From positions 5,020-52,804 of the forward strand of contig NZ_JAAHHG010000029.1 of the NCBI RefSeq assembly GCF_010692555.1: a stretch of 47,785 nucleotides of DNA, read 5' to 3'. The notes below the pieces were generated by a model, which worked only from the letters and a program-made list of their open reading frames with translations, did no database searches and had not been told where the DNA came from. Of this stretch, positions 1 to 5,651 are shown piece by piece. How positions within the stretch are numbered: the first letter of the stretch is position 1; the number at the start of each line of letters is the position of its first letter. A program made the translations under genes and the position numbers. Origin of the DNA: Okeania sp. SIO3B5. Its GTDB lineage: Bacteria; Cyanobacteriota; Cyanobacteriia; Cyanobacteriales; Microcoleaceae.

Positions 1-3000
1 TTTATATTCCTGGAGGAAGCTTTATGATGGGTTCCCCAGAAAACGAAGTTCAAAGACTTAATAATGAAAGTCCTCAACATCAAGTAACTCTCCAACCTTT
101 TTATATGAGTAAATACCCTATTACTCAAAACCAATATCAAGCAATTATGGGAGAAAATCCTTCTAACTTTAAAGGAGGAAACCGTCCAGTAGAAAAAGTG
201 ACATGGCATAACGCCACAGAATTTTGTCAAAGACTCTGTGAAAAAACTGGGAAAATTTATAGACTACCCAGTGAAAGTCAGTGGGAATATGCTTGTCGTG
301 CAGGAACAACCACACCATTTTATTTTGGAGAAACTATAACGTCTGAGTTAGTTAACTACAATGGCAACTATATTTATGGCAAAGCTCCTAAAGATAAATA
401 TCGAGGAGAAACAACTAATGTGGGAAGTTTTCCTCCAAATTCTTTTGGTTTATACGATATGCACGGCAATGTCTGGGAATGGTGTCTGGATATTTGGCAC
501 ATTAACTATGATGGTGCGCCTAATGATGGAAGTGCTTGGGAAACTACAGGAAATAGTAACATAAAAGTCCTTCGTGGTGGTAGTTGGTCTAACTCTTCTT
601 GGAATTGTCGGAGTGCCAGACGTTACGACAACTATAGCAACAACCTTATCTACTACAAAGGTTTTCGGATTGTCTGGTATACCCCCGAAGTAACAAATTC
701 TTTGGATAAAATGATTGTGGGTAAAACTAACAAAATATTTCAAAATCCTGGGGAAATTTCCTCCCTTATTAATCAGACTTATCCAACGGAAAAAAAGTTA
801 ACCCCTCCACCACAAATATCTCAAAAATTAACAGCACCACCCGTTATTAATCAAACTTCTACACCAGAAACATTTCCAGAATTAATACCAGAATCAGAAA
901 TAGGAGAAATATTTACTTTTGAAGTAGTAACTGTCAATAATTTTGGCAAAATAATCACTCGTACTCCTGGTAATGCCAGACAAAAAATAGAAGATTTAGG
1001 TAATGGTATTAAATTAGAAATGGTTTATATTCCTGGAGGAAGCTTTATGATGGGTTCCCCAGAAAACGAAGTTCAAAGACTTAATAATGAAAGTCCTCAA
1101 CATCAAGTAACTCTCCAACCTTTTTATATGAGTAAATACCCTATTACTCAAAACCAATATCAAGCAATTATGGGAGAAAATCCTTCTAACTTTAAAGGAG
1201 GAAACCATCCAGTAGAAAAAGTGACATGGCATAACGCCACAGAATTTTGTCAAAGACTCTGTGAAAAAACTGGGAAAATTTATAGACTGCCCAGTGAGAG
1301 TCAGTGGGAATATGCTTGTCGTGCAGGAACAACCACACCATTTTATTTTGGAGAAACTATAACGTCTGAGTTAGTTAACTACAATGGCAACTATATTTAT
1401 GGCAAAGCTCCTAAAAGTAACTATCGACAAGAAACAACAAATGTAGGAATTTTTCCTCCTAATGCTTTTGGTTTATATGATATGCACGGCAATGTCTGGG
1501 AGTGGTGTCTAGATACTTGGCATGACAATTATAATGGTGCTCCTAATGACGGAAGTGTTTGGGAAAGAGGAGAAAGTATTAATCAAAGAATTATCCGTGG
1601 CGGTAGTTGGAACAATAATCCTAATCATTGCCGGAGTGCCTTCCGCTTTAACAACTATATTGACAACTGCATTATGAATTTTGGTTTCCGCGTTCTCTTG
1701 TTGCCTGATTTTCAGAAAAAGTTTCAAAATACAGGGGAAATATCGTCAGTTATGAACCAGACTTATCCAACAGAAAAAAAGTTAACCCTTCCACCACAAA
1801 AATCTCAAAAATTAACAGCACCACCCGTTATTAATCAAACTTCTACACCAGAAACATTTCCAGAATTAATACCAGAAGCAGAAAGAGGAGAAAGATTTAC
1901 TTTTGAAGTAGTAACTGTCAATAATTTTGGCAAAATAATCAACCGCACCCCCGTTAGTGCCAGACAAAAAATAGAAGATTTAGGTAATGGTATTAAATTA
2001 GAAATGGTTTATATTCCTGGGGGAAATTTTCTCATGGGTTCCCCAGAAAACGAACAGGGAAGAAGCTCTGATGAAAGTCCGCAACATCAGGTTACTCTCC
2101 AACCTTTTTATATGAGTAAATATCCCATTACTCAAGAACAATATCAGGCTATTACTAGAGAAAATCCTTCTCACTTTAAAGGAAAAAGTCGCCCAGTTGA
2201 AAATGTGAAATGGCATGAAGCAGTAGAGTTTTGCCAAAAGCTTTCTGAGAAAACTGGAAAAATTTATAGACTGCCAAGCGAGAGTCAGTGGGAATATGCT
2301 TGTCGTGCAGGTACGACAACTCCTTTCTATTTTGGAGAAACTATAACGTCTGAGTTAGTTAACTATAACGGTAATTATCCTTATAGTAATGCCCCTAAAG
2401 ATAAATATCGACGAGAAACAACCGAAGTGGGAAGTTTTCCTCCCAATGCTTTTGGTTTATACGATATGCACGGCAATGTTTGGGAATGGTGTCTGGATAT
2501 TTGGCACAATAACTATGATGATGCGCCTCATGATGGAAGTGCTTGGGAAAGTGGAAGATATAGTTTTAGAAGGGTGTTCCGTGGTGGGAGTTGGCTCAAA
2601 CGTTCTAGGAGTTGCCGGAGTGCCTGGCGTAGCTACTACTATAGCGTCGAATTTGGCATAAGTGTGGGTTTTCGGATTGTCTGGTATACCCCCGAAGTAA
2701 CAAATTCTTTGGATAAAATGATTGTAGGTAAAACTAACAAAAAATTTCAAAATCCTGGGGAAATATCCTCCCTTATTAATCAGACTTATCCAACAGAAAA
2801 AAAGTTAACCATTCCACCACAAAAATCTCAAAAATTAACAGCACCACCCATTATTAATGAAACTTCTCCACCACAAAAAATTCTCACATCAATACCAGAA
2901 GCAGAAAGAGGAGAAATATTTACTTTTGAAGTAGTAACTGTCAATAATTTTGGCAAAATAATCACTCGCACTTCTGGTAATGCCAGACAAAAAATAGAAG

Positions 3001-5651
3001 ATTTAGGTAATGGTATTAAATTAGAAATGGTTTATATTCCTGGGGGAAATTTTATGATGGGTTCCCTAGAAAACGAACAGGGAAGAAGCTCTGATGAAAG
3101 TCCGCAACATCAAGTGACTCTCCAACCTTTTTATATGAGTAAATATCCCATTACTCAAGAACAATATCAGGCTATTACTAGAGAAAATCCTTCTCACTTT
3201 AAAGGAAAAAGTCGCCCAGTTGAAAATGTGAAATGGTATGACGCAGTAGAGTTTTGCCAAAAGCTTTCTGAGAAAACTGGAAAAATTTATAGACTGCCAA
3301 GCGAGAGTCAGTGGGAATATGCTTGTCGTGCAGGTACAACTACTCCTTTTTATTTTGGAGAAACTATAACGTCTGAGTTAGTTAACTATGACGGTAATTA
3401 TCCTTACAGTAATGTTCCTAAAGATAAATATCGAGGAGAAACAACTAATGTGGGAAGTTTTCCTCCAAATTCTTTTGGTTTATACGATATGCACGGCAAT
3501 GTTTGGGAATGGTGTTTAGATATTTGGCACATTAATTATGATAGTGCGCCTAATGATGGAAGTGCTTGGCAAACTAGGGGAGATAGCAACATAAAAGTCC
3601 TTCGTGGTGGTAGTTGGTACAACTATTCTTGGAATTGTCGGAGTGCTAAACGTTACAACAATGATGGCAACAACCTTATCTACTACAGGGGTTTTCGGAT
3701 TGTTTCGTCTACCCTGGAAGTCAGAAATTCTTTGGATAAAATGATTGTAGGTAAAACTAACAAAAGATTTCAAAATCCTGGGGAAATATCCTCCCTTATT
3801 AATCAGACTTATCCAACAGAAAAAAAGTTAACCCCTCCACCACAAAAATCTCAAAAATTAACAGCTCCATTAGTTATTAATGAAACTTCTCCACCAGAAA
3901 CATTTCCAGAATCAATACCAGAATCAGAAATAGGAGAAAGATTTACTTTTGAAGTAGTAACTATCAATAATTTTGGCAAAATAATCAACCGCACCCCCGG
4001 TAATGCCAGACAAAAAATAGAAGATTTAGGTAATGGCATTAAATTAGAAATGGTTTATATTCCTGGCGGAAGTTTTCTCATGGGTTCGCCAGAAAATGAA
4101 GCTGAAAGACTTAATAGTGAAAGTCCCCAACATCAGGTTACTCTTCAACCTTTTTATATTAGTAAATACCCTATTACTCAAAACCAATATCAAGCAATTA
4201 TGGGAGAAAATCCTTCTCACTTTAAAGGAGGAAACCATCCTGTAGAAAAAGTGACATGGCATAACGCCACAGAATTTTGTCAAAGACTCTCTGAGAAAAC
4301 TGGGAAAATTTATAGACTACCCAGTGAAAGTCAATGGGAATATGCCTGTCGTGCAGGTACAACTACTCCTTTCTATTTTGGAGAAACTATAACGTCTGAG
4401 TTAGGTAACTACAATGGCAACTATATTTATGGCAAAGCTCCTAAAAGTAAACATTTAGAAAAAACAACCGAAGTAGGAATTTTTCCTCCCAATGCTTTTG
4501 GTTTACATGATATGCACGGCAATGTCTGGGAATGGTGTCAAGATGTTTGGCGCAATAACTATAATGGTGCGCCTACTGATGGAAGTGCCTGGGAAAGTGA
4601 AGGAGATAGTAGTCAACGACTTCTTCGTGGTGGCTGTTGGAATATCCATCCTCGGTTTTGTCGGAGTGCCCGCCGTATCAGGAATAATGCCGACTACTAC
4701 GGCAGCTACTGGGGTTTCCGCCTTCTCTTGTTGCCTGATTTTCAGCAAAAGTTTCAAAATACAGGAGAAATATCATCAGTTATTAACGAAACTTCTCCAC
4801 CACAAAAATTTCTCACATCAATACCAGAATCAAAAATAGGAGAAATATTTACTTTTGAGGTAGTTACTGTTAACAACTCTGGCAAAATAATCAACGGCAC
4901 CCCTGGTAATGCCAGACAAAAAATAGAAGATTTAGGTAATGGTATTAAATTAGAAATGGTTTATATTCCTGGGGGAAGTTTTATTATGGGTTCGCCAGAA
5001 AATGAACTACACAGATATGATGCAGAAAGCCCTCAGCATCAAGTAACCCTAAAACCTTTTTATATGAGTAAATACCCCATTACTCAAAACCAATATTTAG
5101 CCATTATGGGAAAAAATCCTTCTGACTTTAAAGGAGAAAACTGCCCAGTAGAAAGAGTAACATGGCATAACGCTAAAGAGTTCTGTCAAAAGCTATCTGA
5201 GAAAACTGGGAGAATTTACAGACTGCCCAGTGAGAGTCAGTGGGAATATGCTTGTCGCGCCGGGACAACTACTCCTTTCTATTTTGGAGAAACTATAACG
5301 TCTGAGTTAGCTAACTACAACGGCAACTATGCTTATGGCAAAGCTCCTCAAAGTAAGTATCGACAAAAAACAACCGAAGTAGGAATTTTTCCTCCCAATG
5401 CTTTTGGTTTATACGATATGCACGGAAATGTCTGGGAGTGGTGTTTAGATATTTGGCACATTAATTATGATGGTGCACCTACTGATGGAAGTACTTGGGA
5501 AAGTCAAGGGAGTAGTAATAAACGAGTACTTCGTGGTGGTTGTTGGTGCAACCTTACTAGGAGTTGTCGGAGTGCCTGTCGCCATAGCTTCTATTCCTAT
5601 GAACGTAATTCCCGGGGTGGTTTTCGTATTGTTTGTTTACCGAGTTTTTAG
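1..5651 (+). CDS. Hexa-repeat FGE-sulfatase/C-type-lectin-fold protein, 5' end outside window
   Basis: The reading frame is already open at base 3 (codons for YIPGGSF precede the first ATG at 24), so the true start lies upstream. Six copies of a formylglycine-generating-enzyme-like domain follow one another. Each runs from MVYIPGG through PITQNQYQ, YRLPSESQWEYACRAGT, GLYDMHGNVWEWC and RGG(S/C)W to CRSA and GFR. Equivalent methionines lie at 27, 1050, 2034, 3057, 4080 and 4986. Linkers contain FTFEVVT and ARQKIEDLGNG. Of the two catalytic cysteines of true FGEs (pattern GGSxxCxxxxC), only the second is kept, so sulfatase activation is unlikely and a binding role is more probable. Backbones are nearly identical at the DNA level (domains 1 and 2 differ at only a few of the first ~370 bases), whereas the stretch between RGGSW and GFR differs strongly. 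This fits C-type-lectin targets of diversity-generating retroelements. No reverse transcriptase or template repeat lies in the window. Confidence 0.9.
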   Translation, partial: YIPGGSFMMGSPENEVQRLNNESPQHQVTLQPFYMSKYPITQNQYQAIMGENPSNFKGGNRPVEKVTWHNATEFCQRLCEKTGKIYRLPSESQWEYACRAGTTTPFYFGETITSELVNYNGNYIYGKAPKDKYRGETTNVGSFPPNSFGLYDMHGNVWEWCLDIWHINYDGAPNDGSAWETTGNSNIKVLRGGSWSNSSWNCRSARRYDNYSNNLIYYKGFRIVWYTPEVTNSLDKMIVGKTNKIFQNPGEISSLINQTYPTEKKLTPPPQISQKLTAPPVINQTSTPETFPELIPESEIGEIFTFEVVTVNNFGKIITRTPGNARQKIEDLGNGIKLEMVYIPGGSFMMGSPENEVQRLNNESPQHQVTLQPFYMSKYPITQNQYQAIMGENPSNFKGGNHPVEKVTWHNATEFCQRLCEKTGKIYRLPSESQWEYACRAGTTTPFYFGETITSELVNYNGNYIYGKAPKSNYRQETTNVGIFPPNAFGLYDMHGNVWEWCLDTWHDNYNGAPNDGSVWERGESINQRIIRGGSWNNNPNHCRSAFRFNNYIDNCIMNFGFRVLLLPDFQKKFQNTGEISSVMNQTYPTEKKLTLPPQKSQKLTAPPVINQTSTPETFPELIPEAERGERFTFEVVTVNNFGKIINRTPVSARQKIEDLGNGIKLEMVYIPGGNFLMGSPENEQGRSSDESPQHQVTLQPFYMSKYPITQEQYQAITRENPSHFKGKSRPVENVKWHEAVEFCQKLSEKTGKIYRLPSESQWEYACRAGTTTPFYFGETITSELVNYNGNYPYSNAPKDKYRRETTEVGSFPPNAFGLYDMHGNVWEWCLDIWHNNYDDAPHDGSAWESGRYSFRRVFRGGSWLKRSRSCRSAWRSYYYSVEFGISVGFRIVWYTPEVTNSLDKMIVGKTNKKFQNPGEISSLINQTYPTEKKLTIPPQKSQKLTAPPIINETSPPQKILTSIPEAERGEIFTFEVVTVNNFGKIITRTSGNARQKIEDLGNGIKLEMVYIPGGNFMMGSLENEQGRSSDESPQHQVTLQPFYMSKYPITQEQYQAITRENPSHFKGKSRPVENVKWYDAVEFCQKLSEKTGKIYRLPSESQWEYACRAGTTTPFYFGETITSELVNYDGNYPYSNVPKDKYRGETTNVGSFPPNSFGLYDMHGNVWEWCLDIWHINYDSAPNDGSAWQTRGDSNIKVLRGGSWYNYSWNCRSAKRYNNDGNNLIYYRGFRIVSSTLEVRNSLDKMIVGKTNKRFQNPGEISSLINQTYPTEKKLTPPPQKSQKLTAPLVINETSPPETFPESIPESEIGERFTFEVVTINNFGKIINRTPGNARQKIEDLGNGIKLEMVYIPGGSFLMGSPENEAERLNSESPQHQVTLQPFYISKYPITQNQYQAIMGENPSHFKGGNHPVEKVTWHNATEFCQRLSEKTGKIYRLPSESQWEYACRAGTTTPFYFGETITSELGNYNGNYIYGKAPKSKHLEKTTEVGIFPPNAFGLHDMHGNVWEWCQDVWRNNYNGAPTDGSAWESEGDSSQRLLRGGCWNIHPRFCRSARRIRNNADYYGSYWGFRLLLLPDFQQKFQNTGEISSVINETSPPQKFLTSIPESKIGEIFTFEVVTVNNSGKIINGTPGNARQKIEDLGNGIKLEMVYIPGGSFIMGSPENELHRYDAESPQHQVTLKPFYMSKYPITQNQYLAIMGKNPSDFKGENCPVERVTWHNAKEFCQKLSEKTGRIYRLPSESQWEYACRAGTTTPFYFGETITSELANYNGNYAYGKAPQSKYRQKTTEVGIFPPNAFGLYDMHGNVWEWCLDIWHINYDGAPTDGSTWESQGSSNKRVLRGGCWCNLTRSCRSACRHSFYSYERNSRGGFRIVCLPSF
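573..677 (+). other. Putative DGR variable region, domain 1
   Basis: Segment from RGGSW to GFRIV. Variable residues SNSSWN and then RRYDNYSNNLIYYK surround the constant CRSA. Variable codons are mostly AAC/TAC/TCT-like, as expected when adenines of an AAC-rich template are replaced. Confidence 0.55.
1596..1697 (+). other. Putative DGR variable region, domain 2
   Basis: Segment from RGGSW to GFRV with variable residues NNNPNH and FRFNNYIDNCIMNF. It has the most AAC/AAT codons of the six and may be closest to the template. Confidence 0.55.
2580..2683 (+). other. Putative DGR variable region, domain 3
   Basis: Segment from RGGSW to GFRIV with variable residues LKRSRS and WRSYYYSVEFGISV. Domain 4 has a closely similar N-terminal backbone but a different sequence here. 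Confidence 0.55.
3603..3706 (+). other. Putative DGR variable region, domain 4
   Basis: Segment from RGGSW to GFRIV with variable residues YNYSWN and KRYNNDGNNLIYYR. It is most like region 1; most base differences between the two have adenine on one side. Confidence 0.55.
4626..4728 (+). other. Putative DGR variable region, domain 5
   Basis: Segment from RGGCW to GFRLL with variable residues NIHPRF and RRIRNNADYYGSYW. The serine of GGS is cysteine here (AGT to TGT, a change at an A). Confidence 0.55.
5532..5636 (+). other. Putative DGR variable region, domain 6
   Basis: Segment from RGGCW to GFRIV at the C-terminus, the usual site of a DGR variable region. Variable residues are CNLTRS and CRHSFYSYERNSRG. 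Confidence 0.6.

Follow-up and report, generated by a model that had tools for sequence, protein, structure and literature searches.

A kinase gene with six tandem FGE modules in Okeania: hypervariable loops of likely DGR origin, fixed and reshuffled between species

The closest described relatives of the gene reported here are the kinase–CLec ‘remote variable proteins’ of cyanobacterial DGRs, which are dispersed away from the reverse transcriptase (RT) (PMC7517822). That paper stresses 3′-terminal cis features, recognises remote DGR targets by a template identity above 50%, and suggests that, once the diversification parts have been lost, favourable variants may be conserved. Our gene shares with these proteins a Ser/Thr kinase N-terminus and a C-terminal CLec/FGE part with a variable region (VR) remote from the RT. 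It differs in having six tandem modules, frozen and reshuffled across species, where one C-terminal CLec is described in the portion of PMC7517822 available. Thiohalocapsa PB-PSB1 likewise combines several C-lectin VR domains in a single polypeptide: the vWA proteins of its DGR 4/5 have three in tandem (PMC10907252). Their N-terminal part is vWA instead of a kinase, and their VRs were seen diversifying in natural aggregates. Kinases fused to CLec are thus already published, as are dispersed variable proteins and CLec VRs in tandem. Our literature search found no report of a tandem frozen-loop array reshuffled between species beside single-copy targets that are still changing, and nothing on DGR modules of Okeania that are frozen and reshuffled. 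Among solved structures, PvdO and formylglycine-generating enzyme (FGE; PDB 5hha, 1y1e and others) belong to the same family as the modules; PvdO is the best homologue (E 1.6e-39), and no tandem array is evident among the chains listed. TvpA, Treponema denticola variable protein 1 (PDB 2y3c), which we take to be a DGR protein, is homologous in sequence to the module (E 3.5e-24); its alignment ends inside the loop, and the homology covers the module, not variable-region correspondence.

The window, meaning the whole stretch of 47,785 nucleotides that was analysed, is C212:5020-52804 of the Okeania sp. SIO3B5 genome (G000; 11.06 Mb, 789 contigs, 96.9% complete). Its open frame at 3-5651 (+) contains six PF03781 FGE-sulfatase (C-lectin-like) stretches, scoring 1081.5 bits together. 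The features are as follows, in window coordinates except where C212 is named.

3..5651, + strand: 3′ part of a Zn-ribbon/Ser-Thr kinase gene with six tandem FGE-sulfatase modules; TAG stop at 5649-5651
C212:3640-4919, upstream of the window, across a 100-N gap: kinase part of the array gene
1..183, + strand: exact repeat of 1024-1206; its first 127 nt also stand directly ahead of the upstream N gap
3..1025, + strand: module D1, loop type 1, with a linker holding a copy of the kinase C-tail
588..659, + strand: D1 hypervariable loop
1026..2009, + strand: module D2, loop type 2; 3/360 nt different from D1 over the first ~120 codons
1611..1682, + strand: D2 hypervariable loop
2010..3032, + strand: module D3, loop type 3, the same in protein sequence in G003 and G004
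2595..2666, + strand: D3 hypervariable loop
3033..4055, + strand: module D4, loop type 4
3618..3689, + strand: D4 hypervariable loop
4056..4961, + strand: module D5, loop type 5, linker shortened
4641..4712, + strand: D5 hypervariable loop
4962..5651, + strand: module D6, loop type 6; loop DNA 0/72 nt different from module 4 of G003
5547..5618, + strand: D6 hypervariable loop

The same 127 nt stand on both sides of the N gap, which resembles a contig break left by a de Bruijn assembly, and the true gap size is therefore probably nil. With this overlap removed the gene is open for 2267 amino acids from MTQCL, a length that holds only if the gap is closed. The exact 183-nt D1/D2 block lies at the gap, so extra D1-type copies are possible. 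The first-pass annotation, which had described one frame over 1-5651 with six variable regions, was right about the single open frame, but the gene extends upstream into the kinase and the count of six could be exceeded. The order along the protein is a CxxC motif, the kinase and the six FGE modules. The kinase domain (PF00069, E 2.1e-37) has a G-loop, the VIK lysine, HRDIKPEN and DFG, which we take as the catalytic motifs of Hanks-type kinases. The most hydrophobic 19 residues of the array protein (mean 1.49) are located in the kinase, and the array kinase appears to be without an obvious membrane segment. Successive modules start 1023, 984, 1023, 1023 and 906 nt apart, and the interval from RGG(S/C)W to GFR is exactly 24 residues (72 nt) in all six. 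Both the kinase C-tail (LDKMIVG.T.K.FQNPGEI) and the linker after the kinase reappear in the linkers between modules, in a shortened form in D2 and D5. The repeated unit would thus be kinase tail, linker and FGE, and the repetition of the kinase tail suggests unequal recombination starting inside the kinase end. An AlphaFold model of D3 (15 rows) had a mean pLDDT of 38.3, too low for the model to be of use.

The first-pass annotation had mentioned reports of DGRs in Trichodesmium. The host is not Trichodesmium but a relative within Okeania, as judged by a genome scan with the kinase half of the gene. The best four loci in that scan were in the Okeania MAGs SIO2C9, SIO2B3, SIO1I7 and SIO2F4, at 88–93% identity; after these, among the best 80 of 355 matches, came Okeania, Hydrocoleum, Trichodesmium and other genes at no more than 75%. 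What had been said of the sequence itself was confirmed. Comparing loops of different type within the same genome (28 pairs, types 1–6, in G000, G001, G003 and G004), 904 of 2016 loop sites differ (44.8%) against 2434 of 15960 in the backbone (15.3%), which bears out the contrast of near-constant backbones and strongly differing loops in six domains of one frame. The near-identity of the 5′ parts of D1 and D2 was also correctly seen, with no difference in the first 180 nt and three in the first 360, as was the constancy of the RSA-coding CGGAGTGC, which is unchanged across all six modules.

It had further been claimed that the changes cluster at adenine sites. With the template of a sister species (G003) as reference for the A-sites, variation among the six window loops amounts to 233/420 (55.5%) at template A and 98/300 (32.7%) at non-A codon positions 1+2, so the claim is upheld for the six loops together. 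Invariant columns make up 4 of the 28 template A positions and 10 of the 20 non-A positions (Fisher p 0.009, permutation p 0.016). Third positions in the loops have diverged among the window modules as well (142/360, 39.4%). Taken one at a time against the template, the loops are changed at 8–17 of 28 A-sites, 3–9 of 20 non-A codon positions 1+2 and 6–10 of 24 third positions, and the bias is significant only for D3, D5 and D6 (p 0.010–0.015), not for D1, D2 and D4 (p 0.32, 0.93 and 0.37); the test covered modules of suitable length, which set aside module 3 (type Y) of G001. Every window loop stands in ungapped register with the G003 template, equal in length over 84 nt and 61–76% identical to it. 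The nearest non-array sequences to the window loops are 20–29/72 away; a template is nearest or tied-nearest among them for D1, D4 and D5, and the templates are nearest or second-nearest among non-array VRs for five of the six loops (ties counted). Template identity alone, at the threshold of >50% used in PMC7517822, would count these frozen loops as targets, as all six pass.

The same fold family and place, the ungapped match to a sister-species template and the adenine bias (present over the six loops together, and in three of six singly) make a DGR ancestry of the array loops likely, though not proven. The window loops may be read as old DGR products that have since drifted. We think it probable that they are DGR-born binding modules, now fixed, which evolve by recombination. 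On this account the loops would first have been diversified by mutagenic retrohoming from a CGGAGTGCC-class template at ordinary 3′-terminal targets, the unit of kinase C-tail, linker and FGE would then have multiplied via unequal recombination, and loss of the 3′ tail may be one reason why homing stopped. Each loop could retain a useful ligand specificity. Fixed and differing loops on one kinase suggest a multi-specific or multivalent sensor, which agrees with what has been proposed for kinase–CLec proteins (PMC7517822) and might be retuned by swapping frozen modules.

Against a DGR ancestry count the lack of bias in D1, D2 and D4 singly and the drift at third positions, and the template A sites coincide with positions where any ligand loop might vary. 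These points lead to the alternative that the modules were never DGR targets, but FGE paralogues of long standing, their ligand loops diverged in function and their backbones alike through recombination only. Homogenisation of the backbone is indeed real, as D1 and D2 show over their first 180 nt, and the divergence of loop third positions would suit this alternative too. It has to contend, however, with the ungapped match to real templates of the genus, the adenine-column bias over six loops, the rank of the templates among non-array relatives and the resemblance of single-copy relatives in the same genome to DGR targets, and we regard it as unlikely.

Module order differs between genomes. 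With modules named by loop type, the arrays read 1-2-3-4-5-6 in G000, 5-3-4-6 in G003, 5-3-4-2-X in G004 and 1-2-Y in G001. In SIO2F4, types 2 and Y at least are present around a gap, with frame breaks. Next to purD, O. hirsuta carries no more than the X kinase with its one module. In G003 and G001, X follows the array as a gene of its own, and in G004 it closes the array as the final module. In 16 of 16 modules the loop had its nearest relative among loops of its own type from another genome; for the first 40 codons this held in just 9 of 16 (ties counted) and for three linker segments in 2–4 of 14. The first 180 nt of D2, which are those of D1, differ at 30–31 positions from type 2 in G004 and G001. 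Modules have thus been gained, lost and reordered, and their 5′ ends and linkers exchanged. The alternative proposed in the first-pass annotation, that diversified domains are being copied in tandem, came close to these data, except that the loops are fixed and the modules reshuffled. Module number and order could instead be chimeras made in assembling a repeat-rich gene, a suspicion raised by the 100-N gap with its 127-nt overlap at the 5′ end, the 183-nt exact D1/D2 repeat and a 152-nt exact repeat in the G004 array. In the stretches checked, however, the G003 array has no exact repeat above 93 nt and that of G001 none of 90 nt or more, and the orders still differ; the same loop identities also recur in separate assemblies, which makes such an artefact very improbable.

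Every loop type of the window was found again in other Okeania species: the D3 loop protein is identical in G003 and G004, and the D6 loop is identical in G003 at the DNA level. Across genomes, loops of the same type differ at 50 of 1008 nt (5.0%) and the backbone at 438 of 7980 (5.5%); purD of G000 is 94.8–95.7% identical to that of three relatives (4.3–5.2% different). The changes between same-type loops fall on 9/392 template A positions (2.3%), 8/280 non-A codon positions 1+2 (2.9%) and 33/336 third positions (9.8%), that is, with no excess at template adenines in the between-species variation of the four genomes. Since the species separated, the loops have changed at the background rate and under constraint, and they are conserved even in G003, which has an RT and templates. 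This provides an orthologue-level view of what may become of DGR-made binding sites after homing stops: here they persist at the background rate.

A second comparison concerns the 3′ tail. In CGGAGTGCC-class targets a template-like tail runs from GFR to the stop codon. Scored against template tails, all six window modules reach 14, where the 95% level of shuffled sequences is 16–21, and 15 of 17 single-copy VRs score 39–80, the exceptions being C268 (first gene) and C189; the 17 do not include the templates themselves (two from G003, one from G010). Among the frozen families, C189 and C684 are without the tail and X has a weak one at most (18–32). The C44 and YSYSRN genes are frozen yet have good tails (60–63), so tail loss fits the array and does not explain all frozen genes. 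VRs with 75–78-nt loops, the changing C219 family included, score at the shuffled level; C219-type VRs belong to another template class, for which the tail comparison is uninformative.

A template repeat and a DGR RT had been named as things to seek in the host's own genome. Neither was found in the assembly, and both exist elsewhere in the genus, in G003. The RVT_1 profile gave 55 matches in G000, and none of the 17 read resembles a DGR RT: 14 have a group II-type PQG motif, one has PKGG (C590), one is degenerate (C301) and one is half of a split RT without the motif. The best match (C1) and 13 others were rejected as DGR RTs on account of the group II-type motif. Two loci that fit a loose DGR motif fail a DGR-RT protein search; one (L031) has the group II motif too and the other (L034) is half of a split RT. 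With the G003 DGR RT as query, G000 yielded a single match at E 1e-10 or better (C73), at 23% identity; as the assembly is 96.9% complete, the absence of a DGR RT applies to the assembly. A match in C198 was chance-like. In G001 the weaker RT matches (E 3e-29 and 4e-20) are an RT fused to a part that we recognise from its sequence as presumably Cas1-like and a similar fragment, with a PQG motif. For the template, the best match in G000 to a template-like query was 86% identical and coding (C268), where the real templates of G003 reach 91–92%; of two pattern scans of G000 one was empty and the other gave six places, none of which read as a template. The candidates in C212, C268, C503, C219 and C778 are coding VRs, that in C503 being of class I, and the one in C223 is a fragment. 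No template for class I VRs was found in Okeania.

Among 23 genomes searched, DGR RT matches at E <1e-100 occur in G003, G010, G024, G026 and G031; both copies in G010 contain stops, and G003 is the only one of five genomes of the genus with such a match. The G003 cassette has the order target gene, TR1, a 119-aa ORF, a 365-aa RT and TR2. The RT has LPLGNLTSQ and YVDD, which we read as DGR RT motifs, and the 119-aa ORF may, by its position, be a candidate for Avd, whose usual place it occupies. TR2 belongs to the CGGAGTGCC class, and all six window loops match it in length. The cassette VR differs from TR1 solely at A (9 of 28, against 0/20 non-A codon positions 1+2 and 0/24 third positions), and a G010 VR differs from TR2 at 12/28 A, 0/20 non-A codon positions 1+2 and 1/24 third positions.

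Two further observations were made in G000 on the way. In contig C305 a relic of the 3′ end of a DGR repeat, 37 nt long (L081:2199-2235), lies next to an apparent IS200/IS605 end. The ORF with which the contig starts resembles that which follows TR2 in the G003 cassette, and this is perhaps what remains of a lost DGR. In at least 11 contigs (C215, C374, C134, C311, C335, C667, C591, C481, C498, C259 and C446) the RVT_1 match is broken in two at much the same point, with the halves seemingly in different frames, which suggests split or interrupted RTs.

The window loops are not current retrohoming targets. The first-pass annotation had offered, as one possibility, that each region is a retrohoming target, and this is not supported: the loop types recur nearly unchanged in other Okeania species, they lack the template-like 3′ tail, and neither a DGR RT nor a template was found in the assembly. 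That the six loops are still being rewritten, by an RT and template absent from the assembly only, could appeal to the incompleteness of the assembly (96.9% in 789 contigs), to the DGR with a same-class template in the sister species G003 and to other G000 VRs that changed after the species separated, but it is very improbable given loop types kept at the background rate in four genomes without adenine excess, even in G003, no template tail in any of the six modules, drifted third positions, and changes at non-A codon positions 1+2 that are lacking in the two cassette VRs.

The preferred reading, of DGR-born modules now fixed, can be set beside the single-copy VRs. Six of seven tested in the host's own genome are near the DGR pattern (0–3/20 changes at non-A codon positions 1+2 and 1–5/24 at third positions), and C189 departs from it (4/20 and 12/24); the genes in C623 and G002 C89 and the second gene of G004 C88 lie outside the single-copy VR and tail sets. 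Some other targets have kept changing, over the same separation of species, in the genomes in which the array loops persist. Between C219 and its G001 and G004 orthologues, backbones are 94–97% identical and loops differ at 21–23 of 75 nt, and the second C268 gene has a backbone 96% identical to that of its G003 counterpart and a loop different at 17/72. The four changing pairs are all the reciprocal-best pairs of equal loop length with a backbone of at least 93.5% and a loop change above 20%; two further pairs of this kind were excluded for unequal loop length (C433/G004, and the array-end modules Y and X). They differ at 73 of 198 codon positions 1+2, compared with 17 of 672 in 14 array pairs, and their upstream divergence by ungapped count is 9.2%, compared with 4.8% for the array pairs.

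The orthologue comparison covered 91 VRs from fetched loci, a subset of the FGE domains, and gave 93 reciprocal-best pairs, 83 of them with equal loop length. Of these 83, 41 (one of them template against template) have a loop difference of 0–12.5%, none falls between 12.5 and 22%, and 42 lie at 22% or above; many in the last group, with backbones of only 83–90%, may not be true orthologues. Frozen loops occur outside the array too, in the C189, C684, X, C44 and YSYSRN families; the tail-bearing C44 gene differs from that of G001 at 2/72 and the YSYSRN gene at 1/72 between G004 and G016. The 11 pairs classed as other frozen ones were chosen by us, and the present set of frozen and changing VRs, with and without a 3′ tail, is small and includes tail-bearing frozen genes. 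A more speculative extension, which we hold to be possible though doubtful, is that single-copy DGR targets invent specificities and that useful loops then enter a homing-dead kinase array, a ‘write-protected memory’ kept by purifying selection and recombined species by species. If so, hypermutation and module shuffling would act in series.

Several other FGE genes were noted in passing. At a cutoff of E 1e-20, G000 has 32 FGE-domain matches, several of them tail-bearing single-copy targets of DGR type. In G016 C35 and G004 C88 (L079 and L080) kinase–FGE genes adjoin one another; one loop is protein-identical across two GTDB genera and the loop of the next gene is strongly different. A second tandem FGE family is represented by a 2418-aa frame with five modules and differing loops in G001 C228 (L183:4423-11679) and by a 1615-aa relative with three FGE modules and different loops in G002 C401 (L184:3509-8356); its N-terminus looks vWA/macro-like by eye. 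Finally, several FGE genes show the same +1 frameshift allele at one position, GAATATGCGCGCCCGTGCAGG instead of the usual GAATATGCTTGTCGTGCAGG, with the downstream part staying open. It is present in C456 (L023, L039), C433 (L024, L044), SIO2F4 (L108, two modules) and Hydrocoleum (L113); it may have spread by conversion or be a programmed frameshift.
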